Notes under the pieces: model-generated
What the model saw: only the letters and a program-made list of their open reading frames with translations
Databases searched by the model: none
What the model was told of the DNA's origin: nothing
Program-made: the position numbers and the translations under genes
Origin: a virus
Direction: 5' to 3' (one strand)
IMG/VR virus record: IMGVR_UViG_3300034190_002280
Coordinates: 1-37,473 of that record
DNA length: 37,473 bases
Shown: piece after piece, positions 1 through 37,473 of the stretch
Numbering within the stretch: the stretch's first letter is position 1
How the letters are laid out: each line of letters starts with the position of its first letter

Positions 1-522
1 GTTTACGCGCTTGAAGAAAATACCACAGGGGCTTATAACGTTGCAATAGGAAAAGAAGCACTTGAAGCGAATACAACTGGCTCGTCCAACGTTGCTGTTG
101 GTTATCAAGCTCTGACCGCAAACACTACTGGTCAATACAACATTGCGATTGGTTATCGATCGCTTTATAACGTTGGAACTGTCAGCCAAAATATTGCCAT
201 TGGTCATCAAGCTGGAGATTCGATTACAACTGGTACCAATAACATTATTATTGGATACACCGCAGACGCAAGCTCAGCGACTGTCTCTAACGAAATCACT
301 TTGGGTAACAGCAGCGTTACCAAGCTGCGTGTTCCAGGCTTAAACGTTGTCGCCCAAGCTGAGTCATTTGCGATTGGTGGAGCGATTTACGAAAACGCTC
401 AAAGCATCAGTGCCGACTATTCCATCACTTCAGGTAACAACGCCATGAGTGCTGGGCCGATCACAATCGACTCAGGCGTCACAGTCACGGTAACCTCAGG
501 TTGTACTTGGACGGTTGTCTGA
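1..522 (+). CDS. Tail fibre protein, C-terminal part (truncated by window start)
   Basis: The reading frame is open from base 1 and ends at TGA 520-522 (173 residues visible), so the N-terminus is missing. Residues 1 to about 95 are repeats of the pattern N-x-A-x-G-x-x-A (for example YNVAIGKEAL, SNVAVGYQAL, YNIAIGYRSL), typical of YadA-head-like left-handed beta-roll adhesins and of many marine cyanophage fibres. The protein ends in a cap reading NAMSAGPI-x-I-x-SGVTVTV-x-SG-x-TWTVV, which recurs at the end of the fibre gene at 36300-36923. Inferred role: host receptor contact at the tail tip. The stop overlaps the next start (TGATG), so the downstream gene is probably translationally coupled. 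Confidence 0.8.
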   Translation, partial: VYALEENTTGAYNVAIGKEALEANTTGSSNVAVGYQALTANTTGQYNIAIGYRSLYNVGTVSQNIAIGHQAGDSITTGTNNIIIGYTADASSATVSNEITLGNSSVTKLRVPGLNVVAQAESFAIGGAIYENAQSISADYSITSGNNAMSAGPITIDSGVTVTVTSGCTWTVV

Positions 523-734
523 TGCCAACAGCAGAAGAGATTGCACAGCATTATTCCGCTGCAATGGACAGCGTGAACCTTATTAACGATCTGATGGCTC
601 AAGACAGCCGTGACGATGAAGAGCAGGACACGGTGTCTCGCAACGTTGAGCACCTGCAGATTATGGTCGCCAAGGATTTTTGGACGACTGAGGACTTGAC
701 TCCTCTGAACAACGCCATCACTGCTGGATCCTGA
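522..734 (+). CDS. Hypothetical protein downstream of tail fibre (70 aa)
   Basis: The ATG at 522 overlaps the fibre stop as TGATG; an in-frame TTG at 501 would lie inside the fibre gene and is less likely. The product is acidic and probably helical (starts MPTAEEIAQHYSAAMDSV), with no membrane segment or signal peptide. Its own stop overlaps the next start (TGATG at 732-736), so three genes form a coupled run behind the fibre. I recall similar short proteins behind cyanophage fibre genes, which suggests a fibre-associated or chaperone-like role, but no function can be read from the sequence. Confidence 0.7.
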   Translation: MPTAEEIAQHYSAAMDSVNLINDLMAQDSRDDEEQDTVSRNVEHLQIMVAKDFWTTEDLTPLNNAITAGS

Positions 735-919
735 TGCAACGCCCTGACCCGATGATCGCCGCTAAGCCTGGAGCGGAGGACGTACAGGCCATGGCAGCTA
801 GAACGCTATGGCTCGAAGAGTTGTATTTCCTTGATGGCCGAGACCAGATCAGTCATCCGCAGTATGGACTGTTTACCGGACTGGCTCTTAAGTATCAAAG
901 CTTGCAATCAACTGACTGA
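734..919 (+). CDS. Hypothetical protein (61 aa)
   Basis: ATG at 734 overlaps the preceding stop. The protein is 61 residues, with the central part reading ARTLWLEELYFLDGRD and then HPQYGLFTGLALKYQ. I do not recognise a domain. Tight coupling on both sides (its TGA overlaps the ATG at 919) supports it as a real gene of the fibre-adjacent operon. It has no signal peptide or transmembrane segment. Confidence 0.65.
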   Translation: MQRPDPMIAAKPGAEDVQAMAARTLWLEELYFLDGRDQISHPQYGLFTGLALKYQSLQSTD

Positions 920-1044
920 TGGCTAAGTCACTTAACGGACAAAATTTTGTCCCTAGCAAGCCAAAAAAGACACGTCAAGGGAATGGATCACATTCAAAAC
1001 CGTCCCATGGACGGAAGAAGTATCGTGGCCAAGGAAAACGTTAA
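919..1044 (+). CDS. Small highly basic protein (41 aa)
   Basis: ATG 919 overlaps the previous TGA; stop TAA at 1042-1044. The product starts MAKSLNGQNFVPSKPKK and ends GRKKYRGQGKR, and is very rich in Lys, Arg, Gly and Ser. Short Lys/Arg-rich proteins with this ending occur, as I recall, in many marine cyanophages; a nucleic-acid-binding role is plausible but only inferred from charge. It is the fourth gene in a chain of 1-nt overlaps starting at the fibre gene. Confidence 0.6.
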   Translation: MAKSLNGQNFVPSKPKKTRQGNGSHSKPSHGRKKYRGQGKR

Positions 1045-1055
1045 TCCTCTTTCCA

Positions 1056-1415
1056 ATGTTCAAACTTCTCATTGCGAGTGGTGTCGCCGTTTCAGCAGCT
1101 GCGCTGGCATCTCCTGCTCAAGCCGACGGTTTCTACCTGAACCCTGAGTTCAACGCTGGTTGGTCTGGCTCAGACTTCACCGGATCTGTTTTTGAAGGTC
1201 ATGTGGGCTGGGAAAAGGAAGGCTTTTATGTACAGGGCGGACCTGCCGTTGCTCAGCCTGATGCTGGTGATGTTGAGGTGGGCCTTTCAGGCAAAATGGG
1301 CATTGGCGCTTCTGTCTCTGAATCCTTTGGCATCTACGGCGAGGTTTCTGCGGCCAAATTTGATGACGCAGATGCTGGCTTTGGTCTGAAGGTTGGCGGC
1401 AAGTACAAGTTCTGA
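1056..1415 (+). CDS. Secreted outer-membrane beta-barrel-like protein
   Basis: The 119-residue product begins with a clear Sec signal peptide (MFKLLIASGVAVSAAALASPAQA, about 23 residues, AQA-DG cleavage pattern). The mature part is Gly- and aromatic-rich with alternating hydrophobic residues (GHVGWEKEGFYVQGGPAV, FGIYGEVSAAKF) and ends in the aromatic KYKF expected of outer-membrane barrels. At about 96 mature residues it is short for a full porin, so it could be a half-barrel or a small OmpA-like barrel. It sits behind the fibre-gene run and is closed by a terminator at 1445. Possible roles are altering the host surface or superinfection exclusion; neither is shown by sequence. Confidence 0.65.
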   Translation: MFKLLIASGVAVSAAALASPAQADGFYLNPEFNAGWSGSDFTGSVFEGHVGWEKEGFYVQGGPAVAQPDAGDVEVGLSGKMGIGASVSESFGIYGEVSAAKFDDADAGFGLKVGGKYKF

Positions 1416-1444
1416 GCTAGCTTGAGTCTGCAGAGACGCAAACG

Positions 1445-6835: not shown

Positions 6836-6950
6836 CACGAGTTGCCTGCCTGTACGCGGCATCCATCGCCTCTCGGAAGTCTTGGTGGTACGTTATCGCC
6901 CCTCCAAAGTTTGAGTACCAGCCTTGATCAGTGCGATAGATGCTGATCAT
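6792..6950 (-). CDS. Hypothetical protein coupled to DNA polymerase (52 aa)
   Basis: ATG at 6950-6948 overlaps the DNA polymerase stop as TGATG, which argues for coupled translation. The product starts MISIYRTDQGWYSNFGG and continues AITYHQDFREAMDAAYRQA, then a polar tail; stop at 6794-6792. No known domain. It could be missed in annotation because of its size, but the exact stop-start overlap with polA is good evidence. Confidence 0.55.
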   Translation of the reverse strand: MISIYRTDQGWYSNFGGAITYHQDFREAMDAAYRQATRDGAPKQSDSDSNHG

Positions 6951-8773
6951 CAGTGGGTCTCCTGCCAGGTTTTGCCGAAAGACACCTCAGCCAAAGCAGG
7001 GATCTCGCCCAACCATTTGGCTTCTGCCTCTTCCATCACCTGTTTTAGGGTCGCCGCCCACTCTTCAGCTGCATCTTCCCTAACAAGCAACAGAATTTCG
7101 TCATGCACCGCAGCGGCAATACGCACCGTGTCTTCACCCGCTGCTTTGACCTTCGGCCAGAGGTTCCCCAAAGCGCACTTAAGGATGGCCGCACCAGCTC
7201 CCTGGATCGGCGTGTTGCACCTGACAGTCAGCCGATTCATGTCGCCCTGGAGATAGCGCCGCATTCCTGAAAGCGGGATCCTGGTCTCCGCCCACTTGTC
7301 GTACTTCGTCCGATCTGCGGCTGCAGCATTGTTCCGCTGCCACTCGGCCACCCCCTGGAACGCACCAAGCCATTCATCCCTGATCTCTGCTGCACGCTCT
7401 TGCGTCATGGTGATGCCCATACCGCCTGCGTAGTTACGCAGACCTGCGGGACCAGAGCCATACAGCAAACCAAAGTTAGCTGACTTTGCAGTCTGCCGAT
7501 CACAGCCGATGGCTTCTGCCGTAACGGTGTGCGGATCTTCCCCAGCCTGGAACGCAGCAATCATCCGCTCATCATTTGCGACTGCCGCAGCGAGGCGCAG
7601 CTCCATTTGACCGAAGTCCGCGTCAACCAGCAGCCAGCCTTCAGGCGCTTCAACGCAACTGCGAAACTGCTTGTCACGCGGGATCTGCTGGTTGTTGGGC
7701 TTGATGCAGGACATACGGCCTGACTCCGCCCCCAACTGCATGTAGCTGGCACGCACGAAGCCGGTGTCGTCCATCTTTTCCTGGATCGACTCGATCATTT
7801 GGCGGCGTTTTTCACACCTTTTCCACTCCAGGTAAATCTGAATAACTTCGTGATCTGCGGCGTAAGAACGCAGTGCCTGCCTGGACGCACTGGGCTTGCC
7901 ATTGGCATCACGAGGCGGCTCACCGCCCAGCAACACGGTGAGTTTTTCCACAAGCTGCTTTGGACTGTTGATGTTGAAGCCTGCGTATTTCTTGGTGCCG
8001 TCCCGCACTTTGCCCTCATCTTTAGCGCGCAGGTTGAAGCTGCCATCTTCATCACGCGGCAGCTTGTGCTCTTCAGGCATCGCAGCATCCAGCTGCAGCA
8101 CGAAGTCTTTGGCCAGACCCTTGATGTCGTGCTCGTAATCGATCTTGCGCTGCTGCAGGTTTTCGGCGTTCCAGGGCAGACCTGTGCGCCACATCTGCGC
8201 CATCGCGGGCAGCGCGCGGCACTCAAGCTTGAAAGCTGGTCCGAGCCTGTCGCGACTAATCCGGTGCTCCAAGATTGCGTCAAGCTCCATCAGAGCAGCA
8301 ACGTCGTTGGCCGCGTAATCCAGCTGTTCTTTACTGAGATCGCCGCCCCAGTTAGAGCGCTGCTGCTCTTTTGACAGCTCTTTTTTCAGGTAGCGCTTTA
8401 CAACGCTGTCGAGACCATGCTTCGTATTAGGCAGGCCATTGGTGAGAAGTCGGCTGGCCAACATGGAGCAACGGACCCACCCAGCCGGATAGATGTTGTG
8501 CTCCTGGAGCCAACCAAGGTCGAAGACAGCGTTATGGGCCAGCCAGAATCGGTTTGGAGAGCGGAAGAACTGGCGGAGATCAGCCCAGTCGCCTTTATCA
8601 AGCTGAAAACAGTCGATCAGAACGATAGTGTCGCGATCCCGCGCACCTAACTGCAAGAGCCGCAACCTGCCGCGCTCAGGCTGTAACTGGAGCGTTTCTG
8701 TGTCAAAGCAAAGGGACTGAGCTGTGCTGATCTTGCTCAGGTGCTCAATGCCCTGAAGAACTTGAGGAGACAT
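6950..8773 (-). CDS. polA: Family A DNA polymerase with 3'-5' exonuclease
   Basis: I use ATG 8773 (MSPQVLQGIEHL), giving 607 residues; an upstream GTG at 8806 adds 11. The exonuclease domain carries CFDTET (Asp24, Glu26), WLAHNAVFDLGWL and YAANDVAALMELD. Polymerase motif A is LLVDADFGQMELRLAA, motif B KSANFGLLYGSG, motif C AAVHDEILLLV. No 5'-3' exonuclease domain is present, as usual for phage PolA. The residue equivalent to E. coli Phe762 is Phe (K-S-A-N-F), a state usually linked to virulent phages in marine surveys. It replicates the phage genome with the primase-helicase at 9631-12042. The stop overlaps the start of a 52-aa gene. Confidence 0.95.
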   Translation of the reverse strand: MSPQVLQGIEHLSKISTAQSLCFDTETLQLQPERGRLRLLQLGARDRDTIVLIDCFQLDKGDWADLRQFFRSPNRFWLAHNAVFDLGWLQEHNIYPAGWVRCSMLASRLLTNGLPNTKHGLDSVVKRYLKKELSKEQQRSNWGGDLSKEQLDYAANDVAALMELDAILEHRISRDRLGPAFKLECRALPAMAQMWRTGLPWNAENLQQRKIDYEHDIKGLAKDFVLQLDAAMPEEHKLPRDEDGSFNLRAKDEGKVRDGTKKYAGFNINSPKQLVEKLTVLLGGEPPRDANGKPSASRQALRSYAADHEVIQIYLEWKRCEKRRQMIESIQEKMDDTGFVRASYMQLGAESGRMSCIKPNNQQIPRDKQFRSCVEAPEGWLLVDADFGQMELRLAAAVANDERMIAAFQAGEDPHTVTAEAIGCDRQTAKSANFGLLYGSGPAGLRNYAGGMGITMTQERAAEIRDEWLGAFQGVAEWQRNNAAAADRTKYDKWAETRIPLSGMRRYLQGDMNRLTVRCNTPIQGAGAAILKCALGNLWPKVKAAGEDTVRIAAAVHDEILLLVREDAAEEWAATLKQVMEEAEAKWLGEIPALAEVSFGKTWQETH

Positions 8774-8795
8774 GGGTGGTGTCGTTGACGCACAC

Positions 8796-8806
8796 CAATG
8801 TAGCAC
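8796..8806 (-). promoter_or_regulatory. Extended -10-like element TGTGCTACATT upstream of polA
   Basis: On the minus strand TGTGCTACATT reads as an extended -10 (TG-C-TACATT) about 25 nt before the chosen polA start. No convincing -35 is visible. It matches the element found at 12145-12153 and 17179-17189, which supports a shared promoter type, but overlap with an alternative GTG start leaves doubt. Confidence 0.35.
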
Positions 8807-9630: not shown

Positions 9631-12042
9631 TCAGTCCCACATATTCCAGTCATCCGCGCCAGGTTCGACACCCTTATGTCTCTGATTATCCGCGTTAAAA
9701 AGCGGATCCCTTGCGGCGGAAGGGTTCTTACCAACAATCGGTTTTGTTAAAAGTTCTGGTTTTGTTAAAAGTCCCTCGTCCGGACTTTTGACAATTTCGG
9801 ACTTTTGACAATCCACTTTGTTGTTTAGATCCGTTCCAGGGGAAGGGGTTTGATTTTTAACAGGGGGTTTCACGGACCTTTCACGCGCGCGAGAGGAAAA
9901 TGCACCTGGAACGTCTGTACCAACCGCTTCGTAGAAAGCAGGCGGCCGGCCCTTACCCGTCCAACTCGCCGGAGTAGCACACCGTTCGATCAGTTTCTGC
10001 CCCTCCAGCTTGTCCAGGCTGTACTTGATCGCGCGTTTCTTGTGGATGCCACCCAGCAGGTCGTGATCCACAAAGTCCTGGACCGTCCAAGGTGCGCGCG
10101 TGCGCCGCATCTCCTTGAGCATGTCCAGCATCTGCCGCGTCGGCCCATTCACTTTGTTCTCCTTCTCAGGCACCGGCCCGATCTGGTACGTGTAATCCGG
10201 CAGCAGGGAGAAGGCCATTTCCTGCCCTTCACGGTCATCGCGTGATTTCTCAACGGTCACGACCCTGGTGTTGTCGCTGAGGCTCAGCTCAGCCAGCTGC
10301 TTGTTGTCCAACCGCTGCATGTTCCACGTCTCATCCACAGCAGCCCTGATGGCGCTGGTGCCACGGAAGCTGCCGTTTCTGTTGTTGTGGTGAATCACGA
10401 TGATGGTGCAGGCCCCAAAATCCTCACCATTGCGCCGCGCAAGCTTCTTCAGGGGCAGCGCGTACTCCCTGCGGTTCTCCTCATAGGGGTTGGAGTCGTT
10501 GCATCCGTCCAGGCTGTCAATCACCACCAGGTCATAGTTCGGCGCTTCCTTTGGTCCCTGAAGCTTTTTGAAGCGGCTGTACCAGGACATGTCCCACTCA
10601 CCCACAACATCGACACCAGTGGTGACGCCGATCAGATCAAACTGACGCCGCACGATGCGCTCGCTCTGGTCTCCGTTCAACCAAAGGCAACGGCCTTTCG
10701 GCACATTGACCAAACCGCCGTGAACATTGAACGACCGCCCCTGGCTGATGTGCTTGCACAGCGTCTGACACATCGCTGACTTACCGGTGCCCCCATCCGC
10801 GTGAATCAGCAGCAACCAAGGTTTGGGCAGCAAGCCCGGAATCAAGTAATCGAACGATGCGTCGTCCAGCTCGCTCACAGCCCTGGGACGAAATTCCTTG
10901 TTCCGCTCAAACGTCAGGTGGGCGTCGAGCATCCGGTCAATCGCCGCTGCTCCTTCTTTGTGCCGCCCAGCCTCTTGGGCTAGCTGAGTTTTGGCCTGAT
11001 CAAGCAGCGCCGGGTTTTCGATGCTGTCCTCTAGCTCCAGCCCCCGCGCGATGACCTCTTCACCGCTGAGTAGGTCGAGCTTGTACTTGAGCGGGAGCGC
11101 TTCGATCTCCTCCACCAATCGTGCAAGACCGTCCCTTTGAAATCGTGTCCGCTCACGATCCACCAGATCGGCCTGACGAATCAACGAGCCGAAGCCCAGC
11201 CCACCGCTCCTGAAACCGTTCTGCCATCGCTCAGCGCAAGGGTTTTTACCGCCCTCCCAATCGTCGGCATACTCGTTATCGCGACGGCTCCACTCTTCCC
11301 ACAGCTTCAAGCCGTCCTCATTGGGCAGCTCGCTGTGGATCATTGCCCCGATTTCCCACCAGAACTGCTCGCTGTTTGCACCGCGAGGCTCAATAACACT
11401 CAGACAACTCCGAGCAATCTCGATCTTCTCCTCCCTGGAACGATTGGAGTACCGGCTGTCGCGAAGTTTGCGGCTGTCTTTCCGCTCATTCAGCTCGCGG
11501 TATTGCTCCCGCATCCGCTCCAACAACCATTCAGGAGCGGTGGGAATGTTGTTTACATCACCAGTAAAGGTGTACTCACCTTCATCTTTGTAAGCACCAA
11601 AAAGCAGACCCTGCCTGCCCCACAGCACTTCCCAGCCTTCATGCCCCGCAGCAGCGTGGCTGAGATCAGAAACAGTCAGGCGATCCTCTTCAGGAACAAC
11701 AAACAGAAACTTCGCCGCATTCTTTTTCGGTGAAGTAATCCGTGGAGCGTTCTCTAGATCCTTGCCCCACTTCTCTTCAATAGCCCCAAGGTTGGCGTCA
11801 ACGTCAAAGATGACGAGCCCTTCAGAGCGAGCGCCGCTGTAAACACCGACAGCCTTGAACTCCTCGGGATATTTTTCGATGTGCTGGGCCGTGAACTCAG
11901 GCGAGAGCTTTTCGTGAGGAGCGCGCCCCAGCGGAGACTTGCCGCAAGCTGCTTTGCCGTTGGGCATCTTCGCGCCCTTGGCGTAGATCGGCGCAGTGGC
12001 CCAATGCTTGGGCAGGCTGCGAACGAAACTGACGAGATCCAT
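9631..12042 (-). CDS. Primase-helicase: AEP prim-pol, PriCT-like and RepA-like ATPase domains
   Basis: An 803-residue protein. Residues 1 to about 180 fit an archaeo-eukaryotic-type primase/polymerase, with VIFDVDANLG (Asp80, Asp82) as the metal-binding pair and WEVLWGRQGLLFGAY after it. Residues about 205-292 fit a PriCT-2-like linker (FWWEIGAMIHSELPNEDG, WEEWSRRD, FGSLIRQAD). Residues about 400-640 are a RecA-fold AAA_25/RepA-like ATPase with Walker A HADGGTGKSAM (414-424) and Walker B LVVIDS (505-510), then IIVIHHNN. A winged-helix-like segment and a low-complexity tail follow. Predicted to unwind and prime DNA for the PolA at 6950-8773. It heads the minus-strand replication unit. Confidence 0.85.
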   Translation of the reverse strand: MDLVSFVRSLPKHWATAPIYAKGAKMPNGKAACGKSPLGRAPHEKLSPEFTAQHIEKYPEEFKAVGVYSGARSEGLVIFDVDANLGAIEEKWGKDLENAPRITSPKKNAAKFLFVVPEEDRLTVSDLSHAAAGHEGWEVLWGRQGLLFGAYKDEGEYTFTGDVNNIPTAPEWLLERMREQYRELNERKDSRKLRDSRYSNRSREEKIEIARSCLSVIEPRGANSEQFWWEIGAMIHSELPNEDGLKLWEEWSRRDNEYADDWEGGKNPCAERWQNGFRSGGLGFGSLIRQADLVDRERTRFQRDGLARLVEEIEALPLKYKLDLLSGEEVIARGLELEDSIENPALLDQAKTQLAQEAGRHKEGAAAIDRMLDAHLTFERNKEFRPRAVSELDDASFDYLIPGLLPKPWLLLIHADGGTGKSAMCQTLCKHISQGRSFNVHGGLVNVPKGRCLWLNGDQSERIVRRQFDLIGVTTGVDVVGEWDMSWYSRFKKLQGPKEAPNYDLVVIDSLDGCNDSNPYEENRREYALPLKKLARRNGEDFGACTIIVIHHNNRNGSFRGTSAIRAAVDETWNMQRLDNKQLAELSLSDNTRVVTVEKSRDDREGQEMAFSLLPDYTYQIGPVPEKENKVNGPTRQMLDMLKEMRRTRAPWTVQDFVDHDLLGGIHKKRAIKYSLDKLEGQKLIERCATPASWTGKGRPPAFYEAVGTDVPGAFSSRARERSVKPPVKNQTPSPGTDLNNKVDCQKSEIVKSPDEGLLTKPELLTKPIVGKNPSAARDPLFNADNQRHKGVEPGADDWNMWD
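9744..9811. repeat. Iteron-like inverted repeats in the primase 3' end
   Basis: TTGTTAAAAGT occurs at 9744-9754 and 9762-9772; its near inverse ACTTTTGACAA (one mismatch) occurs at 9784-9794 and 9801-9811. Two direct copies face two inverted copies around a centre near 9778, with starts spaced 18, 22 and 17 bp. The first pair encodes an in-frame LLTKPE/LLTKP repeat, but the second pair is spaced by 17 nt and so is out of phase with codons. Possible origin iterons or protein-binding sites; they could also fold as hairpins. Confidence 0.6.
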
Positions 12043-12077: not shown

Positions 12078-12111
12078 CCCCTGGGTGCTTCTCCGGCTCC
12101 CAGGGGTTTTT
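12078..12111 (+). terminator. Terminator hairpin between divergent primase and ssDNA-binding genes
   Basis: CCCCTGGG (12078-12085) pairs perfectly with CCCAGGGG (12099-12106) across a 13-nt loop and is followed by TTTTT (12107-12111). It works only in the + direction (no T-run on the other strand), yet no + strand gene lies upstream of it; the upstream neighbour is the primase gene on the other strand. It therefore ends either a short RNA, a leader, or antisense transcription. Confidence 0.7.
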
Positions 12112-12125
12112 CCATTCTATAGCAG

Positions 12126-12153
12126 TTGCAAACCCCCCACGCTTTGCTACATT
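12126..12153 (+). promoter_or_regulatory. Promoter of the ssDNA-binding protein gene
   Basis: TTGCAA (12126-12131, 4 of 6 match to TTGACA), 16-nt spacer, then an extended -10 TG-C-TACATT (12145-12153). It is 40 nt upstream of the ATG at 12193 and just after the terminator, so it probably drives the 194-aa gene. Confidence 0.6.
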
Positions 12154-12192
12154 GTTGAGGCACCGGGCAATGCGCCCACAGCAAAGGACCCC

Positions 12193-12777
12193 ATGGGCTT
12201 CATCTCATCCAAGAACAAGTCAGCCATTACTGCCGGTTCCGGCGGCGGCTACCTCAACCCCTCCAAGATTCAGAGCGGCGGCAGCGTCCGCTTCGCTCTC
12301 CTGGAAGATCAACCCCTTGAATTCTTCGAATGCTGGGGCGAGTCATCTGAAGGCGGCGTCAAGCCTTTCCGTTTCAGCGACGATCCCAGCCCTGAGGACA
12401 TCGACGAAGAAATGGGACCTGAGTTCACCCGTCGTATGAACCGCGAGGGCACCGCTCCCGAGAAGGTCAAGTTCGCCATCGCTGTGCCCGTATATAACTA
12501 CGAGTCCAGCAGCGTCCAGATCATGCAGCTATCCCAGAAGAGCCTGCAAAACGAACTGGACGACATCTCCCAAATGGAGGACTACGCCAACCTGTTGGAG
12601 TGGGACTTCGTTCTGGGCAAAGAAGGCAACGGTCTCGAAACTCGTTACAGCCTGCGCCCAGTGCCGCGTAAGAAAGGCACTCAGGACAGCATCGAATCCG
12701 CCTGGACCGATGCACGCGCCGCTGGCTTCGACATTGGCCGCCTGCTGACCGGCGAAAACCCATTCAAAGCCGAGTGA
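12193..12777 (+). CDS. Putative single-stranded DNA-binding protein (194 aa)
   Basis: ATG 12193 (MGFISSKNKSAITAGSGGGY); the ORF is open further upstream but crosses the promoter and terminator. The N-terminal third carries SGGSVRFALLEDQPLEFF and the aromatic KPFRFSDDPSPEDIDEE; the middle has strand-rich VKFAIAVPVYNYESSSVQIM and the later part WDFVLGKEGNGLETRYSL, which look like the basic and aromatic strands of an OB fold. I recall similar phage proteins annotated as ssDNA-binding. Position beside the primase-helicase and exonuclease supports a replication role. It is followed by a strong terminator. No Walker or nuclease motif is visible. Confidence 0.55.
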   Translation: MGFISSKNKSAITAGSGGGYLNPSKIQSGGSVRFALLEDQPLEFFECWGESSEGGVKPFRFSDDPSPEDIDEEMGPEFTRRMNREGTAPEKVKFAIAVPVYNYESSSVQIMQLSQKSLQNELDDISQMEDYANLLEWDFVLGKEGNGLETRYSLRPVPRKKGTQDSIESAWTDARAAGFDIGRLLTGENPFKAE

Positions 12778-13738: not shown

Positions 13739-13924
13739 ATGAGCGGTCACCTGGAGCGGGTCATGCCCGAAGTAGTCACAACAGTTCTCGAAGATGGCTG
13801 CATCTGCATTTCAGTGGGAGACTTCACTGGGGTGGTCAGTTCAATGCACCTAATCGAGCCCAAAGCTCATCAATTACAGAGTGCCTGGTTGGCACGTGAA
13901 GCCGAACTAGCTGATGCCCGCTGA
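13739..13924 (+). CDS. Hypothetical protein (61 aa)
   Basis: ATG 13739 lies 4 nt after the KilA-N stop; starts MSGHLERVMPEVVTTVLEDG. Beta-rich N-terminal half (CICISVGDFTGVVSSMHLIE) and a helical tail. No domain recognised. Its last 11 nt overlap the exonuclease start at 13914, so all genes from 12988 to 14896 look like one unit. Confidence 0.6.
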   Translation: MSGHLERVMPEVVTTVLEDGCICISVGDFTGVVSSMHLIEPKAHQLQSAWLAREAELADAR

Positions 13925-14714
13925 TACACAAAACGCCCTCGCCGGACTCCGCCGCTGGAGCCTGGTCCGTGATGACTCCGGCCCGCACCGCGTTTATCGC
14001 GACGAACTAGGCAACACCTACGCCTCAGTCACCCACATCCTCAAGGAAACCTCACCGCAATGGCAAAAAGATGCTCTTGATCGATGGATTCAAAAACCAG
14101 GATCTGCCCTGGAGCGTGATATTGCCTGCCAGCGCGGGACTCTGGCTCACGATCACGCGGAGTACGTCCTCAAAACAGCAGCGAAACTCGCGCGTAATAG
14201 CGCTAACAAGCGAGGAAGCTGGAGGACTGGAGATGACGGCCTGGAACGTGCCCCCAAGGGAATCACTACCTGGGCCATCGAAAAAGCCATTCAGGGGGCT
14301 CCTAGGGTCTCCTGGAGCGCCTCTGGCTACGCCCGAGGTCTACGGACTTGGATCGGAGAGAACGTAACCGCCATTCACGCCATCGAGTTCTCCGTGCATG
14401 ACCCACGAGGCTGGGCTGGAACGGCTGACGCTTTGCTGGACGTAGACGGCGCGTTATGTATTGCGGACTGGAAAACCAGCGTGAATGCACGTAGCGAGGA
14501 CATGCTGGCTAATTACATCTGCCAGGCTGGAGCGTATTCGCTGGGACTCCAGACCCTGACTGGGATCAAGCCAAAGACCGGAGCCATTGTGGTGGCACGC
14601 CGCAGCGGAGCACCGCAAGTGCGCTTGCTTAGTGAGTTAGAATTACGTGGGGCGGAGTGTCAATGGCTAGAGAGAATGGATATATGGAACGCTCAGCAAG
14701 CTCTCAAGAACTAG
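13914..14714 (+). CDS. PD-(D/E)XK exonuclease (RecB/lambda-exo-like)
   Basis: 266 residues with the family's signature: RGTLAHDHAEYVL (74-86), Glu158 in HAIEFSV, GWAGTADALLDVDG (167-179), the core IADWKTS with Asp185 and Lys187, and YICQAGAYSLG (201-211) as the Q-x-x-x-Y motif. These fit the Cas4/RecB/lambda-exonuclease group, which digest DNA ends for recombination or recycle nucleotides from host DNA. No Cys ligands for an Fe-S cluster are evident, so it is not Cas4-like in that respect. No recombinase partner (Beta/RecT) is recognised nearby. The gene carries an unusually dense set of TGGARCG motifs in all three frames. Confidence 0.85.
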   Translation: MPADTQNALAGLRRWSLVRDDSGPHRVYRDELGNTYASVTHILKETSPQWQKDALDRWIQKPGSALERDIACQRGTLAHDHAEYVLKTAAKLARNSANKRGSWRTGDDGLERAPKGITTWAIEKAIQGAPRVSWSASGYARGLRTWIGENVTAIHAIEFSVHDPRGWAGTADALLDVDGALCIADWKTSVNARSEDMLANYICQAGAYSLGLQTLTGIKPKTGAIVVARRSGAPQVRLLSELELRGAECQWLERMDIWNAQQALKN

Positions 14715-14896
14715 AAGAAGCCCTAGACCGTCTCTACAAAGGGACTACCAATGTGGCGCTACAGGCTGCGGATCTAGGGATAAGCCTGGAACGTTTGAAG
14801 CAGCTGTTCCGCGAGTACGTCGCCGCCAGGCCCATCGACATCAACGATGAAGACGTATGGCTAGGCGATACCACCATGTGTTGGCCGTATGCCTAG
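14663..14896 (+). CDS. Putative small helix-turn-helix protein (77 aa)
   Basis: Starts at ATG 14663 (MARENGYMERSASS) or 14684 (MERSASSQELEEAL); both overlap the exonuclease 3' end. The stretch TNVALQAADLGISLERLKQLF fits a helix-turn-helix of the resolvase or sigma type. The tail (DEDVWLGDTTMCWPYA) is acidic. A regulatory role is inferred from the HTH pattern only. It ends the + strand unit and faces the minus-strand block. Confidence 0.55.
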   Translation: MARENGYMERSASSQELEEALDRLYKGTTNVALQAADLGISLERLKQLFREYVAARPIDINDEDVWLGDTTMCWPYA

Positions 14897-14907
14897 CCCT
14901 GGAACGT

Positions 14908-15204
14908 TCAGGGATAGATCCGCGACACGTCGTCTTGGAAGTCGATGTCACGCTTACCGCGTAGGAACTCACCGCCGCCAACCATGCCCCCAACAATGGG
15001 AAGGTTCCTAGTACCCCAGGAGTTGAGATCCCCTGGTCCGTACTTTCTCCTGGCACGTGTCACGGCTTCATTGAGGGACGCCGCCAACGTTTGACAGCGC
15101 ATGATGCCCAACATGTTTGATCTATAGGTGAGATACACGAGTCTCACCTCTTGGGGTTGCCACGAGGGCTTGGCGTTTGCCTGGAGCGTTTCAAGCTTGG
15201 TCAT
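14908..15204 (-). CDS. Hypothetical protein (98 aa)
   Basis: ATG 15204 overlaps the upstream stop (ATGA). Starts MTKLETLQANAKPSWQPQE; soluble, basic, with CQTLAASLNEAVTRARRKYG and a Gly-rich turn (GTRNLPIVGGMVGGGEFLRG). No domain recognised. Last gene of the eight-gene minus-strand block; it ends 12 nt from the convergent + strand gene. Confidence 0.6.
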   Translation of the reverse strand: MTKLETLQANAKPSWQPQEVRLVYLTYRSNMLGIMRCQTLAASLNEAVTRARRKYGPGDLNSWGTRNLPIVGGMVGGGEFLRGKRDIDFQDDVSRIYP

Positions 15205-15811: not shown

Positions 15812-15954
15812 TTGAGGTTCGGATTACGGTCAGCAGGGGTTGGGATGGAGCGTTCCCAGTCGTCTTGCTCCTGTTCGATCTGCATCTCCTCTAGTTCCTC
15901 TTCGGTGTAAAGCTCGAAGGGGAGTGGAGCGTCGTCGATGTCGGGGTAGTTCAT
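15808..15954 (-). CDS. Small very acidic protein (48 aa)
   Basis: ATG 15954 overlaps the stop of the TerS-like gene (ATGA), so I reject the longer start at 16029. Starts MNYPDIDDAPLPFELYTEE, continues ELEEMQIEQEQDDWE. Strongly acidic, which could mimic DNA or bind a basic protein; this is only suggested by composition, a feature shared by several small phage inhibitors of host enzymes. Confidence 0.55.
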   Translation of the reverse strand: MNYPDIDDAPLPFELYTEEELEEMQIEQEQDDWERSIPTPADRNPNLK

Positions 15955-21427: not shown

Positions 21428-21438
21428 GGGTTAGGACG

Positions 21439-21699: not shown

Positions 21700-21719
21700 T
21701 AGCTCAACTCTGAGGTGTC

Positions 21720-23171: not shown

Positions 23172-23192
23172 AGCTATTGCTGCTACTTACTC

Positions 23193-23357
23193 ATGGCCAA
23201 GTCTCTCGACAAGGTATTGCAGGCTGACGGTTCCTACAAATGGGAACTTGTTGATTCTTGGGATCCATCTTCCGAGACATCTGCAAAGCCTGCTGCAAAA
23301 CCCGCAGCTAAAGCAAAAACAACCAGAAAAACAAAAGCTAGTAAGGTAGAAGAGTAA
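23193..23357 (+). CDS. Small Ala/Lys-rich protein (54 aa)
   Basis: ATG 23193 to TAA 23355-23357. Starts MAKSLDKVLQADGSYKWELV, then a low-complexity Ala-Lys-Pro tail (AKPAAKPAAKAKTTRKTKAS). It lies between portal and scaffold with short gaps. The tail recalls histone-H1-like or linker sequences; function unknown. Confidence 0.55.
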   Translation: MAKSLDKVLQADGSYKWELVDSWDPSSETSAKPAAKPAAKAKTTRKTKASKVEE

Positions 23358-23371
23358 ATTCTTTTCTACTA

Positions 23372-24082
23372 ATGGAAGAGCAAGTCATTCAGGAGACGCC
23401 CGTGGCGTCCTCTGAGCAGCCCGTGGCTGAGACGACAGGCACCGTCAACATCGTTGATACCGCTGCTTACGAGCAGCAAATTCAAGCGTTGCAACAGCGT
23501 GCCGCTGAAGCTGAGGAGAAGTTCCAAGGTATCAAAGGCAAGCTCGACGACGTTTACAAAAAACAAGACGAGCAACGCCGTAAAACACTGGAAGACCAAG
23601 GCCAGTGGAAGGATCTCTGGGAAGAGGCCAACAAAACTGCTCAGACTAAAGATCAACAGATCGCCGATCTGGAGCGACAACTAGCGGATCTTCGTGCTTC
23701 TAACGAAACCGCTGCGATGAAGACCTCTGCGCTGTCTGCAATTAGCCAAGCTGGTGCGATTAACGCTGAACAGATGCTGCAGCTTGTTCAAAGCAATCTG
23801 AAAAAATCAGATGACGGCAGTGTCAAAGTTCTCAACGGTGGCGTCGAAGAAGACATCAATGTCTATCTCGGCAAGCTAAAAAATCCTGGCTCTGGTTATG
23901 AGCATCACTTCAAGCCAAGTGCTCAAGCTGGAATGGGTGCTAAGCCAACGACTGGAACTGCTGGTGCCGCAGGTATCGCTAATCCTTGGTTGGAAGGTAG
24001 TATTAACTTAACCAGGCAAATGGCCTTGGAAGCTACCGATCCTGACCTTGCAGCTGTGCTCAAGCGAGAGGCCGGTAAATAG
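23372..24082 (+). CDS. Head scaffolding protein (putative)
   Basis: 236 residues, directly before the capsid gene. An acidic start (MEEQVIQETPVASSEQPVAE), a long coiled coil from about 28 to 115 (YEQQIQALQQRAAEAEEKFQ, KDQQIADLERQLADLRASNE), then ISQAGAINAEQMLQLVQSNL and a Gly/Ala-rich C-terminal region. This is the usual composition of siphovirus scaffolds. No protease domain is visible, so the scaffold may be removed intact or cleaved by a host enzyme. Confidence 0.75.
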   Translation: MEEQVIQETPVASSEQPVAETTGTVNIVDTAAYEQQIQALQQRAAEAEEKFQGIKGKLDDVYKKQDEQRRKTLEDQGQWKDLWEEANKTAQTKDQQIADLERQLADLRASNETAAMKTSALSAISQAGAINAEQMLQLVQSNLKKSDDGSVKVLNGGVEEDINVYLGKLKNPGSGYEHHFKPSAQAGMGAKPTTGTAGAAGIANPWLEGSINLTRQMALEATDPDLAAVLKREAGK

Positions 24083-24117
24083 TCCCTGTGGGACACCACC
24101 TCAAGTCCGTGACTTGA
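24082..24117 (+). other. Two tandem hairpins between scaffold and capsid genes
   Basis: GTCCC (24082-24086) pairs with GGGAC (24090-24094) over a 3-nt loop, and TCAAGTC (24101-24107) pairs with GACTTGA (24111-24117) over a 3-nt loop. Neither is followed by a T-run, so they are not terminators. They may mark an mRNA processing site or protect the 5' end of a capsid mRNA. Confidence 0.55.
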
Positions 24118-24146
24118 ACCCCGCAAACCTCAATCCCGAATAAGAA

Positions 24147-25229
24147 ATGGCTGCTCCATTTCAGAATTATTCCGGCGGTGTCCTTCTGGCGGACATCGTA
24201 AAAAGGAATAATCTCAGCACCTATGTGTCTGAGGCAATCAAAGAACGCTCCATGCTGCTGAAGAGCGGCGCTGTGGTGCGTAATGCTCTTCTGGATGCCC
24301 GCGAAGGCGGCACCCGGATTCAGGTTCCTGAATTCAACCCCGTTGCACCGACCGAAGAGATCTTCGACGGCACCGCAACTTGGGGCACCAGTGGTGCTGG
24401 TTACCTGACCCCTCAAAAGGTCGGCACCGGAACCCAGATTGCATCCATCGTTCACCGTGGCTTCGCCTACGCCGTGGATGACGTTGCAGTCTTGGCTGCT
24501 GGTGAAGATCCGATGCTTCACATCCGCAACCAGCTGGCTGACGCCATCAACAAGCTGAATGCAACCCGTCTGTTCGAGCAACTGACTGGTCTGTTCCACA
24601 CTGCCCTCAATGGCCACCGCCTTGAGAAGCAACTGGGCGGCTCCGGCTCTACCGCTGAAGCCAACTACCTGACTGCTTCCACGATGGCAGAAGCCCGCTC
24701 CCTGCTGGGTGAGCGTGGTGAAGAGCTGGACACTCTGATTGTCCACCCCTCCGTCGCTTACTACCTGTATCAGGTGGGAATGCTGACTTTCTCCACTTCA
24801 GCACTGGCCGCTTCTGGCGCGGTGACCTGGGGTGGCGGTGGTGTTGGCATCGGCGCTCGTGAGGTTGGTGAGTTTGCTGGTTGCCGAGTCATTGTTGACT
24901 CCCTGTGCAACATCAACGACCCGACCTCTACTGGCAACCGCCAAGAGTTCCGTTGCTACCTCGTGAAGTCCGGCACCATCCTTGAGGGTGTGCAGCAGGA
25001 TCTTCGCATCGAAGCTGACCGTAACGTGCTGTCCAAGCAGGACGTGCTGTCTGTGGACTACCACGGTGCTTATCACATCATGGGCACCAAGTGGACCTCC
25101 GCTTCTGACAACCCCACCAACGCAAACCTGCGTACCGGCAGCAACTGGTCTGCCACCTACGACATCGACCTCATCCCTGCGGTTGAGATCTTCGTCAACT
25201 CTCCTCTGGACAACGGCCTCAAGTCCTGA
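24147..25229 (+). CDS. Major capsid protein
   Basis: 360 residues. Starts MAAPFQNYSGGVLLADIVKR; contains SGAVVRNALLDAREGGTRIQ, GYLTPQKVGTGTQIASIVHR, a long spine-like helix region (DPMLHIRNQLADAINKLNAT) and LDTLIVHPSVAYYLYQVGM, as in HK97-fold coat proteins of the P22-coat-like group. Position after portal and scaffold and a strong terminator after the gene fit the most highly expressed head gene. It would form the icosahedral shell. Confidence 0.85.
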   Translation: MAAPFQNYSGGVLLADIVKRNNLSTYVSEAIKERSMLLKSGAVVRNALLDAREGGTRIQVPEFNPVAPTEEIFDGTATWGTSGAGYLTPQKVGTGTQIASIVHRGFAYAVDDVAVLAAGEDPMLHIRNQLADAINKLNATRLFEQLTGLFHTALNGHRLEKQLGGSGSTAEANYLTASTMAEARSLLGERGEELDTLIVHPSVAYYLYQVGMLTFSTSALAASGAVTWGGGGVGIGAREVGEFAGCRVIVDSLCNINDPTSTGNRQEFRCYLVKSGTILEGVQQDLRIEADRNVLSKQDVLSVDYHGAYHIMGTKWTSASDNPTNANLRTGSNWSATYDIDLIPAVEIFVNSPLDNGLKS

Positions 25230-25245
25230 TCCTGACGAGACAAAT

Positions 25246-25276
25246 GGCCCTACCATTAGGTGGGGCCTTCTTCTTT
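25246..25276 (+). terminator. Terminator after the capsid gene
   Basis: GGCCCTACC (25246-25254) pairs with GGTGGGGCC (25259-25267) over the loop ATTA with one T-G wobble, followed by TTCTTCTTT. It probably reduces, rather than fully stops, transcription into the connector genes, as is common after capsid genes. Confidence 0.75.
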
Positions 25277-25283
25277 CTGCGCT

Positions 25284-25814
25284 ATGGCTGCCACAATCAC
25301 CGCCACACTGAAGAGCGAGACAGCCAACAGCTTTGTGACGCTGGCAGAAGCCAACACGTATTTTGAAACCGTTCCAGACAGCACCGACTGGGACAACAAG
25401 ACTGACGATCAGAAGAATCGTGCATTGATCTCAGCCACACGCTGGATCGACACGTTGAATTTCTACGGTGATCGTTGCGATGACAACCAAGCGCTGAGCT
25501 GGCCTCGCAACAACTACCACGTGGATCGCGTGGAGCTAGTTTGCACCAGCATCCCAAACGACATTAAATACGCTACTTATGAGTTAGCCAACGCACTGGC
25601 TAATGACACGAGTTCGATTACAGGGTCTACCGGCGATACGGGATTGTACGAATCCGTCAAACTCGGGGAAATGGAGGTCAAGTACAACACTTCTAGTCAG
25701 GCTACTGGAACTGTTAATAACGTATTCGACGTTTATCCTTGGCTTCAGTCTTATCTCGGCGCTTATTGTCTGGGTGGCAGTGGCTCGTATTCTCTCCGCG
25801 TTGTGAGGGGTTGA
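25284..25814 (+). CDS. Head-tail connector / adaptor protein (gp6-like, DnaT-like)
   Basis: I use ATG 25284 (MAATITATLKSETANSFVTL); the ORF start at 25260 lies inside the terminator. TLAEANTYFETVPDSTDWDN and ALISATRWIDTLNFYGDRCD, followed by ALSWPR, are hallmarks of the DnaT-like/gp6-like adaptor group that sits below the portal. 176 residues. First of four genes forming the neck (25284-27176). Confidence 0.75.
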   Translation: MAATITATLKSETANSFVTLAEANTYFETVPDSTDWDNKTDDQKNRALISATRWIDTLNFYGDRCDDNQALSWPRNNYHVDRVELVCTSIPNDIKYATYELANALANDTSSITGSTGDTGLYESVKLGEMEVKYNTSSQATGTVNNVFDVYPWLQSYLGAYCLGGSGSYSLRVVRG

Positions 25815-25815
25815 T

Positions 25816-26202
25816 ATGCCAGGCGCACTTGACAAGGTTTTTAAGGAAGCAGCCAAGGCAATTGTTGCGGACCTTGGCGACGGCCTAGACACCAAGATTG
25901 ACTACACCCGCAAGTTTGATGGGACGTATGACACAGCCAAGGGCACGTTCACAACATTCGACCGCCCGTACTTCAATTTGAAGTGTCCGGTCGAGTTTGT
26001 GCGATCAGAGGAAGAAGAAGGGCGTGAAGAACGAGAAGCACGCATTTACATCTCTCCTGATCAAATCGGGGGTAATCAACCCACAATGCAGGACGAGATC
26101 ACTTTGAAATTTGCGGGCGCAAGTCGTGCTGCCCAGATCACAGACGTTAATACCTACCGTGGCGGCCAAGAGTACCTCTACATCTTGCGCGTGAGGTTCT
26201 GA
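25816..26202 (+). CDS. Head completion / stopper-like protein (128 aa)
   Basis: Starts MPGALDKVFKEAAKAIVADL, then FDGTYDTAKGTFTTFDRPYF and VEFVRSEEEEGREEREARIY, ending ITDVNTYRGGQEYLYILRVRF-like strands. Short beta-rich protein placed between the adaptor and the gp10-like gene, where head-closure proteins sit. Identification is by order and size more than by motif. Its stop overlaps the next start. Confidence 0.6.
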   Translation: MPGALDKVFKEAAKAIVADLGDGLDTKIDYTRKFDGTYDTAKGTFTTFDRPYFNLKCPVEFVRSEEEEGREEREARIYISPDQIGGNQPTMQDEITLKFAGASRAAQITDVNTYRGGQEYLYILRVRF

Positions 26203-26744
26203 TGGCCAGAAAGAAAAAAGGTCTTGGCCAAATCTTCACCGACCTGGAACGCAACATAAATGACGACTACAACGCTCTAATTCAGCTGACTGCCGAGGGT
26301 TTGGCGACAAAAGAGAACAGTCCCGTGGATACAGGGTTTTTTGCATCTAGTTGGAAGGCGTCAACCCAAAAAGTTCGTGCTGAAGACAAGCGCGAAGATC
26401 ACGCTCCATGGTCAAAAATTTACGAGACTCGTCAACCGGGCGGGCAGACCAGCTGGAGCAGTATCGGCAACCAACGAGTCCACACGAGCAAAAAACCTGT
26501 GGGTAGCCAGATAAAACCCCGTTTTCCTGTTCCAGAATTCAACTACAAGCGCCAACCTACGGTCTACATCGGTAATACCGCTGAGTATGCGGGTTATGCC
26601 CTTGAGTCTCCGAAAGTGGCAAACTTTATTCAAGGCGAAATGCGTTCTCTAGTCCAGGAAGCTTTTGGAGACAAACGTCCTGGCCGCATTTTTGTCAGAA
26701 CCGGATCCAACAGCAGTGTGTTCGGATCTTATACCAAGCTCTAA
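26202..26744 (+). CDS. Neck protein, HK97 gp10-like (180 aa)
   Basis: ATG 26202 overlaps the previous TGA. Contains LTAEGLATKENSPVDTGFFA and SSWKAS, the N-terminal pattern of HK97 gp10-like tail-completion proteins (helix, then SPVDTG-x-x-x-x-S-W), and later VYIGNTAEYAGYALE, the family's second signature. C-terminus basic. Acts in joining head to tail. Confidence 0.75.
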   Translation: MARKKKGLGQIFTDLERNINDDYNALIQLTAEGLATKENSPVDTGFFASSWKASTQKVRAEDKREDHAPWSKIYETRQPGGQTSWSSIGNQRVHTSKKPVGSQIKPRFPVPEFNYKRQPTVYIGNTAEYAGYALESPKVANFIQGEMRSLVQEAFGDKRPGRIFVRTGSNSSVFGSYTKL

Positions 26745-26747
26745 ACC

Positions 26748-27176
26748 ATGACTCTCGTAAAAGCCCGCGCCGCCTTTGAAAAAGCAGTCACTGACGCTGT
26801 TTCTACAGCTGACAGCACGGTGCTTATGGTTTACGACAACGTTCGCTACACCACACCAGGCAAAACCAAAAAATACATCCTGATGACGGTGAACTTCAAC
26901 CGTTCCACCATCCAAAACCAAGGCGCAGCCCAGGACTACTACTCCGGTGTCATCCAGTGCAACATCTACGTTCCAAAGGCTGCTGGAACGTCAGTCCTTT
27001 CCTCTCTAAGTGAAGCTGTGATCGACGGCCTTACATCCGTAAACGCTTCTGACTACACCGATACCTTCAGCGTTGCACCTCGCGTTTCTGACATTTCCGG
27101 ACCAACCCCGTTAGAGCTAGAGGATCGCTCGCACTTCATCGGCATTGTTTCTTGTCAGTTCACAGCAGTTGTGTAG
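26748..27176 (+). CDS. Tail terminator protein (lambda U-like)
   Basis: 142 residues. Starts MTLVKARAAFEKAVTDAVST; the beta-rich remainder (KKYILMTVNFNRSTIQNQG, YYSGVIQCNIYVPKAAGTS, HFIGIVSCQFTAVV) with an aromatic N-x-Y-x-V strand resembles tail terminators (DUF4128-type). Position after the gp10-like gene fits. It would cap the tail tube at the head side. Confidence 0.65.
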   Translation: MTLVKARAAFEKAVTDAVSTADSTVLMVYDNVRYTTPGKTKKYILMTVNFNRSTIQNQGAAQDYYSGVIQCNIYVPKAAGTSVLSSLSEAVIDGLTSVNASDYTDTFSVAPRVSDISGPTPLELEDRSHFIGIVSCQFTAVV

Positions 27177-36271: not shown

Positions 36272-36299
36272 ACTGTCAGCAATAGTGCGCTAAGGCTTT

Positions 36300-36923
36300 G
36301 TGGCGACTCACGACTATTCCTTAGCGGATCAAAGCGGTGCCAGCTTTCGTGGTGACCTGAATAACGCCCTGGAAGCGATTGCGCGAAACAACGACAACAG
36401 CGGTGACCCTTCAACCACGTTCCCGTTCCAGTGGCACGTTGATACAACCGGAAGCCAAGCGACTCTCAAGATTAGAGACGGAGCTAACAACGCATATATC
36501 CAGGTCGGGGCTACGGGAGCGCTTCAAGGCTCTGGAACGGCCAACCTTGGCCTAGCCCTTGCGGCATCGCCGTCATTCACAGGAACTGCCACGTTTGCTG
36601 GCAACATCCTGATGTCAGGCACTGGAACGCTTGACCTGCCAGTCGGAACAACAGCTGAGCGTCCGGGCACCCCTAATAACGGGATGATCCGGTATAACTC
36701 AACGTTGTCCAGATACGAGGGGTATAGCGGTTCCGCTTGGTCGCAGATTGGTGGCGGCGCAACTGGCGGTGGAACGGATCAGGTGTTCTACACCAACGAT
36801 CAATCGGTCAGCACAGACTTCACTTTGAGCGGATCTCTGAACGCAATGTCAGCGGGGCCGATAAGTATTGCCAGTGGGGTTACAGTAACGGTAAGTTCTG
36901 GCGCCACTTGGACGGTGGTCTGA
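36300..36923 (+). CDS. Tail fibre protein (207 aa)
   Basis: GTG 36300, reads MATHDYSLADQSGASFRGDL, NNALEAIARNNDNSGDPSTT, the usual N-terminal attachment region of cyanophage fibres. The middle has TTAERPGTPNNGMIRYNSTL and YEGYSGSAWSQIGGG, the trimeric fibre shaft or head module. The C-terminal cap NAMSAGPI-x-I-x-SGVTVTV-x-SG-x-TWTVV is shared with the fibre at 1-522 although the DNA differs. Followed within 1 nt by the next gene. Confidence 0.8.
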   Translation: MATHDYSLADQSGASFRGDLNNALEAIARNNDNSGDPSTTFPFQWHVDTTGSQATLKIRDGANNAYIQVGATGALQGSGTANLGLALAASPSFTGTATFAGNILMSGTGTLDLPVGTTAERPGTPNNGMIRYNSTLSRYEGYSGSAWSQIGGGATGGGTDQVFYTNDQSVSTDFTLSGSLNAMSAGPISIASGVTVTVSSGATWTVV

Positions 36924-36924
36924 C

Positions 36925-37317
36925 ATGAGCACAGTAAAGGCAGCCAACCTGCAGAACACGGGGAGTGGTGCTCCAGTGTTTAAAAACAGCTCCGGAACGG
37001 AGATTGGCACGCTCTGCAGAGCCTGGGTGAACTTTAACGGCACTGGAACGGTTTCTATTCGAGACGACTTTAACGTCAGCTCAATTACTGATAACGGCAC
37101 GGGCGATTATACAGTTACTTTTACCAACTCGATGTCCAGTGTTAATTACGCCGTCACAACTGGTTATATGACATCTCAGTCAAGCACAAACGTAAGCAGA
37201 GTGAAAAACGGAACTATGGCAACTACTGGTTTTGGCATACAAGCAGGGGGTTTTCAGCAGGGCGCAACTAACGTTAACAAAGATCACGAAGCCTGCATGG
37301 CTGCAGTCTTCATCTAA
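36925..37317 (+). CDS. Fibre-tip / receptor-binding-like protein (130 aa)
   Basis: Starts MSTVKAANLQNTGSGAPVFK, then CRAWVNFNGTGTVSIRDDFN, VSSITDNGTGDYTVTFTNSM. The W-V-N-F-x-G-T-G-x-V-x-I-R-D-x-x-N motif with SSITDNGTGDYT is a known beta-structured tip domain in cyanophage fibres. A paralogue begins 16 nt downstream. Possibly alternative or stacked tip proteins. Confidence 0.7.
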   Translation: MSTVKAANLQNTGSGAPVFKNSSGTEIGTLCRAWVNFNGTGTVSIRDDFNVSSITDNGTGDYTVTFTNSMSSVNYAVTTGYMTSQSSTNVSRVKNGTMATTGFGIQAGGFQQGATNVNKDHEACMAAVFI

Positions 37318-37332
37318 CCCTGACATAGAACC

Positions 37333-37473
37333 ATGAGCACACTTAAGGTCGCCACTATCCAAGACACGTCGGGCAACAACAGCTCGACACCATCCGAAGT
37401 TGCTCAGGGCAGAGCAAAGGCGTGGGCCAACTTCAATGGCACTGGAACGGTTGCTATAAGAGATGATTACAAT
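37333..37473 (+). CDS. Fibre-tip-like protein, N-terminal part (cut by window end)
   Basis: 47 residues visible: MSTLKVATIQDTSGNNSSTP, SEVAQGRAKAWANFNGTG, TVAIRDDYN. It parallels the preceding gene from the first residue (MST-[VL]-K-x-A) and at AW-[VA]-NFNGTGTV-[SA]-IRDD-[FY]-N, so the two are tandem paralogues. By analogy it should continue with the SSITDNGTGDYT segment and, beyond that, may carry the repeat-rich part seen at 1-522. Confidence 0.7.
   Translation, partial: MSTLKVATIQDTSGNNSSTPSEVAQGRAKAWANFNGTGTVAIRDDYN

Follow-up and report, generated by a model that had tools for sequence, protein, structure and literature searches.

A strand-polar, genome-wide motif in the genome of a cyanophage and its possible role as a Chi-like control site

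The genome of an uncultured virus, record IMGVR_UViG_3300034190_002280, raises the question of why a short word, TGGARCG, should be carried in large excess on one strand of a phage and in one orientation. The record was analyzed over its whole length of 37,473 nucleotides (hereafter the window). Judging from the matches of its proteins, the genome is that of a cyanophage. A small protein encoded at 1056-1415 has matches in marine cyanophages only, 440 of the 444 being named Synechococcus phage, Prochlorococcus phage or cyanophage; the exonuclease matches mainly cyanophage exonucleases, and cyanophage S-2L is among the best matches of both the terminase large subunit (TerL) and the portal protein.

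TGGARCG is a strand-polar, genome-wide motif under selection at the level of its letters and not at that of protein. An exact count gives 63 copies on the plus strand (31 TGGAACG and 32 TGGAGCG) and 20 on the minus strand (binomial P = 2e-6), as well as 22 plus-strand and three minus-strand copies of the extended form CCTGGARCG (P = 2e-4), the latter three at 6250, 8167 and 9832. These numbers agree with the hand count of an earlier note made from the letters of the window. The chance expectation of 4.6 copies per strand given there is too low, as both Markov and codon-shuffle expectations are higher. An order-3 Markov model predicts 17.7 copies for the two strands summed, versus 83 observed, and synonymous-codon shuffles within approximately 55 called genes of the window yield 18.1 +/- 2.4 copies on the plus strand, or 26.2 +/- 2.5 with codon junctions preserved, and 9.5-14.6 on the minus strand (one small open reading frame, 13740-13924, was called out of frame, without bearing on the result). 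The plus-strand excess after codon control is about 2.4-3.5-fold; thus, the contention that codon use cannot explain the motif survives, though at a smaller factor than had been stated. The plus orientation also persists, as had been proposed, in regions of minus-strand genes (19 plus versus 8 minus copies), and the three readings reported for the exonuclease gene, Leu-Glu-Arg, Trp-Ser-Ala and Ala-Gly-Thr, do represent three frames.

Two further properties of the distribution lie beyond the earlier note: a clustering of copies at 13.0-17.8 kb, and a loss or reversal of polarity at approximately 20-27 kb. The mean spacing between plus-strand copies in the window is about 600 bases, and the 13.0-17.8 kb interval holds 21 of the 63 plus-strand heptamers (P = 2e-5) and 12 of the 22 nine-mers (P = 4e-6).

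The excess is conserved in related phages with copies at shifting positions, and the absence from relatives that would have counted against the motif did not appear. In 80 viral contigs selected by their portal gene TGGARCG occurs 708 times on the plus and 253 times on the minus strand, versus 92 expected per strand, and all 20 of the longer related records exhibit the same polarity relative to the portal gene. When plus-strand heptamers were ranked without bias against an order-3 Markov model, TGGAACG and TGGAGCG took the top two places in the majority of 11 near-complete genomes, followed by TGGTGCG, TGGTACG and TGGGACG; pooled over the near-complete genomes, 633 plus-strand and 195 minus-strand copies compare with 111 and 53 expected. 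The consensus is TGG, an A far more often than T, G or C, a purine and CG, with a C before and a G or T after being favorable. TGGARCG is the part that every relative shares, TGGTRCG and TGGGACG are weaker versions of it, and the CC prefix is a preference of the window genome and a few relatives only. The same motif is found in phages of 36-57% GC.

Gene-level expectations, with codons drawn from each phage group's own usage, are likewise exceeded in relatives. Exonuclease genes hold 5.8 copies versus 2.0 expected, and those of 36%-GC phages 3.5 versus 0.49. The antisense (genome plus) strand of the minus-strand primase gene carries 4.5 versus 0.36 copies, a 12-fold excess, that of the polymerase gene 2.0 versus 0.15, and terL 2.8 versus 0.24. 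In 17 exonuclease genes the copies are spread over 16 alignment columns and all three frames (LER, WSA/WNA, AGT/AGA and others), and every one of these genes keeps three to eight of them. Copies are thus gained and lost while their number is maintained.

The arrangement of the copies is revealing of a focal point. Anchored on terL, plus-strand density climbs through the tail and replication genes to about 3 per kb at 6-2 kb before terL, where minus-strand copies are almost nil (57:1 and 62:3), and drops to 0.05 per kb at 2-4 kb past the start of terL. Anchored on the portal gene in the 80 loci, plus and minus densities are 2.6 and 0.1-0.2 per kb at -7 to -5 kb, and 0.04-0.4 and 0.3-0.5 at -1 to +4 kb, with controls at about 0.1. 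This family-wide flip of polarity lies approximately 1 kb upstream of the portal gene and is sharp, followed by a gradual return 4-6 kb further right. With each sequence context counted once, the plus:minus ratio is 396:67 on the left and 43:71 on the right (Fisher P = 1e-23); the right-hand reversal by itself is modest (P = 0.01). Thus, copies on both sides point at the gap between the terminase and portal genes, although the arms are unequal, the left being long and the right short. The peak is located inside the exonuclease gene, with 7.5 plus-strand copies in its first kb, about 100 bases apart within the gene, and plus:minus counts for that kb of 362:1 in high-GC relatives, 129:0 in relatives with another terminase and 52:0 in low-GC relatives; these counts are not independent, because close relatives share many copies. 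The use of another polar word by low-GC relatives was considered and rejected: words of the TGGTG type are skewed in them but lack the flip geometry, and TGGARCG is retained in those low-GC phages that encode the exonuclease.

The motif follows the replication module (primase-helicase, single-strand DNA-binding-like (SSB-like) protein and MGME1-like exonuclease) and not the packaging genes. A low-GC genome of the Synechococcus/Prochlorococcus family, termed Prochlorococcus-type here from its GC content and size, includes a 41.3 kb contig that is 79% identical to the window in its terminase, 74% in its portal and 73% in its capsid protein, lacks the genes for the primase, the SSB-like protein, the exonuclease and the small protein at 14657, and is devoid of the motif excess (6:5 in 41 kb). 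This contig looks like a nearly whole relative phage, from an infected cell or a co-sorted virus, in which ERF replaces the replication module of the window. In reciprocal fashion, 17 contigs have the replication module in common with the window (exonuclease 86-89% identical) next to terminase and portal proteins that are only 23-36% identical, and all 17 carry the motif. A representative of these contigs is 60-76% identical in terminase and portal to the cultured phages KBS-S-2A, S-H1, MED4-117 and MED4-184. The occurrence of one replication module before two unrelated terminase/portal modules indicates that halves of cyanosiphovirus genomes are exchanged immediately beyond the motif cluster. 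In cultured phages that share the structural type of this representative but lack the module, the motif is rare or absent (S-H1 5:6, MED4-184 3:1, KBS-S-2A 15:5); nine of the 15 plus-strand copies of KBS-S-2A lie within 1-7200, possibly as a fainter form of the distribution in a Sak-encoding phage. All motif-bearing relatives covered encode the primase-helicase, which the motif-less relative lacks. Recombinases, each with an exonuclease, are encoded by the motif-poor siblings, namely Sak by KBS-S-2A, RecT by S-H1 and ERF by the Prochlorococcus-type relative; in MED4-184 a comparable pair of genes is present, with a Sak-like protein that is recognized solely by resemblance to that of KBS-S-2A. 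Searches of the window and of the motif-bearing records covered gave no match to RecT, ERF or Sak.

These properties may be those of a Chi-like, one-way, end-facing site controlling a nuclease or recombination enzyme, an explanation preferred here with about as much doubt as conviction. Cutting at or near the terminase-portal gap, a pac or cos site, would send one DNA end into the capsid and leave the other exposed. An enzyme of the RecBCD, AddAB or AdnAB kind, or one doing the same job, would enter the exposed left end, run leftwards towards the replication genes and encounter the dense plus-strand copies from the 3' side, in the way that RecBCD approaches Chi in E. coli; the orientation of the copies is the one that RecBCD would read coming from that end. 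The enzyme would then switch from degradation to recombination or protection before the concatemer is destroyed. The right side would usually be taken up by packaging, so that few minus-strand copies would be needed there. A phage without an annealing recombinase of its own would thereby keep its unpackaged concatemer end and recombine. The reader would thus be an enzyme that processes DNA ends, the end would lie in the terminase-portal gap and reading would be protective, all of which we infer. The human MGME1 protein acts on single strands, and the exonuclease of the module therefore need not be the resector of the end.

Phages of E. coli provide the precedent, as those lacking recombinases over-represent Chi, which in lambdoid phages is found mostly between replication and terminase genes (PMC3784561). 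In phage P1, whose pac has been mapped, the 50 Chi sites are biased to the plus strand left of pac (14:5 within 30 kb) and densest next to it. The present phages, like those, carry a short asymmetric word beyond codon and composition expectation and, in the records searched, gave no match to RecT, ERF or Sak, whereas the excess is missing from siblings that encode one of these. Enrichment and leading-strand bias on the host chromosome, as expected of Chi, were not found in Synechococcus WH7803 or in SynAce01, which are possibly not hosts; for this reason the motif is not classified as Chi but is said to work like one. The earlier note had set Chi aside because of its letters; the letters do differ, but the behavior is nonetheless closest to Chi. 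As a separate observation, TGGARCG in Synechococcus phage P60 is rarer (2:2) than the 6.4 copies per strand predicted from composition; this concerns one genome, and is what avoidance of the motif by a phage able to block RecBCD would produce.

Several observations weigh against this explanation. A fixed virion end is not readable from the assemblies, as contig ends differ among relatives, and the density peak lies approximately 5-7 kb from the proposed DNA end rather than adjoining it. The chromosome of WH7803, which has clear replichores by GC skew but may not be a host, carries TGGARCG without leading-strand bias (leading:lagging 221:216) and at an observed/expected ratio of 0.97, and 800 kb of SynAce01 showed neither replichore polarity nor an excess worth naming; the host skew that the earlier note had proposed to look for is missing from the chromosomes examined. 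In calibration with the same script, Chi in 100 kb of E. coli is 12:2 on the leading strand with a ratio of 1.26, in contrast to WH7803, and its ratio in P1 is 7.0. Given these ratios, absent over-representation in a host weighs little and absent polarity more. Moreover, the lack of a recombinase and the presence of a phage replisome coincide and are inseparable here, and the SSB-like protein could itself be an annealing protein of the gp2.5 type.

Who would read the sign is a matter on which the versions of this explanation divide. TGGARCG as the strict Chi of the RecBCD enzyme of a picocyanobacterial host is a possibility that falls clearly short of even, and the missing leading-strand bias in WH7803 means that a host Chi is not demonstrated. 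RecB is full-length in nearly all genomes of the host family, recBCD has been reported in marine Synechococcus and Prochlorococcus (PMC5101192), and as of 2023 a Chi sequence had been identified in no cyanobacterium (PMC10269773). A motif common to phages of such different GC content also speaks for a host reader, and weak enrichment on the host side, in view of the E. coli calibration, is not decisive. A search for a host with a strong excess (TGGARCG in 201 genomes, CTGGAACG in 400), however, found none that stood out decisively; GC-rich genomes have a mild excess that agrees with codon use, and the reversed-word control used in these scans is a poor yardstick. Furthermore, S-H1 infects WH7803 yet is without the motif, although it encodes RecT. 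In an 800 kb sample of WH7803, GTTGGTGG was leading-biased (64:21); it contains GGTGG, as E. coli Chi does, and is conceivably a Chi of the host, although the bias may be due to a general G/T skew. Somewhat less probable again is a reader encoded by the phage, in which the exonuclease, the primase-helicase or the small neighbor would read TGGARCG directionally and so control resection or recombination. The tight linkage of motif and module across two structural backgrounds, the lack of a counterpart on the host chromosomes tested and the location of the hot spot in the exonuclease gene itself are in its favor. The exonuclease, by sequence profile (E of approximately 1e-11) and predicted fold (Foldseek E of 4e-12), is nearest to human mitochondrial MGME1, and its fold also matches the nuclease domains of AdnAB and AddAB. 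MGME1 has no known recognition site, though, and to our knowledge a polar recognition site spread over a whole genome has not been described for any phage nuclease. Chi recognition in RecBCD and AddAB resides in RecC or AddB, and neither has a counterpart here. There is correspondingly a small chance that the module carries a Chi-like system of its own, moving between unrelated phages together with selection for its sign.

Outside of the Chi-like explanation, a replication signal, that is, lagging-strand priming or helicase-loading sites of the phage primase-helicase, seems rather unlikely; their polarity would result from mainly unidirectional replication, with the exonuclease cluster near the origin. 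The distribution of the primase-helicase among motif-bearing and motif-less relatives is the one such sites predict, the mean spacing is compatible with priming, and origins often lie within replication genes, where the copies peak. Known primase sites are much shorter, however, the copies in the exonuclease gene lie far closer together than the mean, and the flip would put a terminus in the terminase-portal gap and an origin among the capsid genes, an unlikely place. Among the directional readers put forward in the earlier note, the primase and the exonuclease may yet be the reader, both being encoded in the module that the motif tracks, but the terminase is disfavored by two module swaps: the motif is missing from a relative with a 79% identical TerL and present in phages whose terminase is unrelated. 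A packaging signal is thus very improbable, even though the flip adjoins terL. Equally hard to credit are codon use and host signals such as FtsK-orienting polar sequences (KOPS) or architecture-imparting sequences (AIMS) copied by the phage; Leu-Glu-Arg codons do yield part of the sense-strand copies, but codon-preserving controls fail by factors of 2.4-13, base composition is disfavored along with codon use, and the host chromosomes tested have no polarity of the KOPS kind. Type III/ISP restriction was set aside, as its orientation effects would account for the direction of the copies and not for their excess; the scan of window proteins also revealed no methyltransferase.

The features discussed are collected in Table 1. 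The window also encodes a KilA-N protein. The SSB-like protein has no sequence match in PDB, no Pfam family was found for the small protein adjoining the exonuclease, and the terminase small subunit candidate has no family match. Between the latter and terL, the region at 17780-18450 is AT-rich, with few long open reading frames and repeated words similar to TACTATAATATT, which are perhaps promoters or an origin.

Table 1. Coordinates of the features of the window and of its motif copies
Feature	Position	Strand	Remarks
Whole uncultured virus record	1..37473		IMGVR_UViG_3300034190_002280
TGGARCG polar copies	378..37449	+	63 copies (plus 20 on -)
CCTGGARCG plus-strand copies, left	767, 5204, 7354, 7546, 9905, 11434, 13013, 13750, 14108, 14240, 14311	+	
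CCTGGARCG plus-strand copies, right	14785, 14898, 15180, 15272, 15553, 16382, 17762, 19633, 26243, 30062, 35698	+	
Densest plus-strand TGGARCG cluster	13750..16390	+	In and right of exonuclease gene, upstream of terminase genes; 18 of 63 copies at 13.7-16.4 kb
Zone of lost or reversed polarity	20000..27000	-	3 plus : 7 minus; begins in terminase-portal gap
C39/C70 papain-like peptidase	4490-5239		Match to phage endolysin family phrog_10051
Family A DNA polymerase	6950..8806	-	With 3'-5' exonuclease domain
PriCT_2/AAA primase-helicase	9631..12042	-	
SSB-like protein	12082..12777	+	phrog_1607, weak match
Exonuclease, PD-(D/E)XK fold, MGME1-like	13914..14714	+	Six TGGARCG copies in three frames
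Small conserved protein adjoining exonuclease	14657..14896	+	Same module; in 9 of 9 relatives with module region covered
Terminase small subunit, candidate	17233..17715	+	By position; homologues adjoin terL in relatives
Terminase large subunit (terL)	18454..19764	+	
Terminase-portal gap, putative site of DNA end (pac or cos)	19765..21719	.	Based on position of polarity flip; the end itself is inferred
Portal protein (DUF4055)	21720..23171	+	Anchor of family profile

Marine Synechococcus and Prochlorococcus are among the most abundant phototrophs of the ocean. If their RecBCD reads the motif, phage genomes would reveal the Chi of the host, and recombination and phage restriction would become directly testable. 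If a phage protein reads it, the motif would be a new sort of recombination code, encoded by the virus and controlling recombination independently of host Chi. In either case marine phages would come under the rule known from E. coli, by which a phage lacking a recombinase carries Chi-like signs. This also provides a method, in which a signal is deduced from the polar words of recombinase-less phages.

Compared with known systems, TGGARCG is similar to E. coli Chi (GCTGGTGG) in lambdoid, P1-like and T5-like phages (PMC3784561) in being a short, asymmetric, polar word built around TGG, enriched where a phage has no recombinase and scarce where it has its own, concentrated between replication genes and terminase and, if the DNA end lies at the terminase-portal gap, oriented so as to be met from the packaging end. 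It differs from E. coli Chi in its remaining letters, in its density (63 plus-strand copies in 37 kb versus 50 sites in 95 kb of P1), in being strongest inside one gene and in having no host-chromosome bias in WH7803. The Chi of AddAB in Bacillus subtilis (AGCGG) is likewise a short polar word read by a helicase-nuclease (PMC5101192), but the host family here has the RecBCD type and no host signature was found. KOPS are similar in being polar, in pointing at one place from both sides and in becoming denser nearby; they are, however, defined on host chromosomes, where no polarity was found, and the arms here are very unequal. Cyanobacterial HIP1 (GCGATCGC) is also an over-represented word in cyanobacterial DNA (PMC5101192), but it is a palindrome and therefore, unlike TGGARCG, cannot be polar. 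Phage primase sites of the T7 and T4 type are strand-specific, and TGGARCG does travel with a primase gene; those sites, however, comprise three to five bases, whereas TGGARCG comprises seven or more and is clustered.

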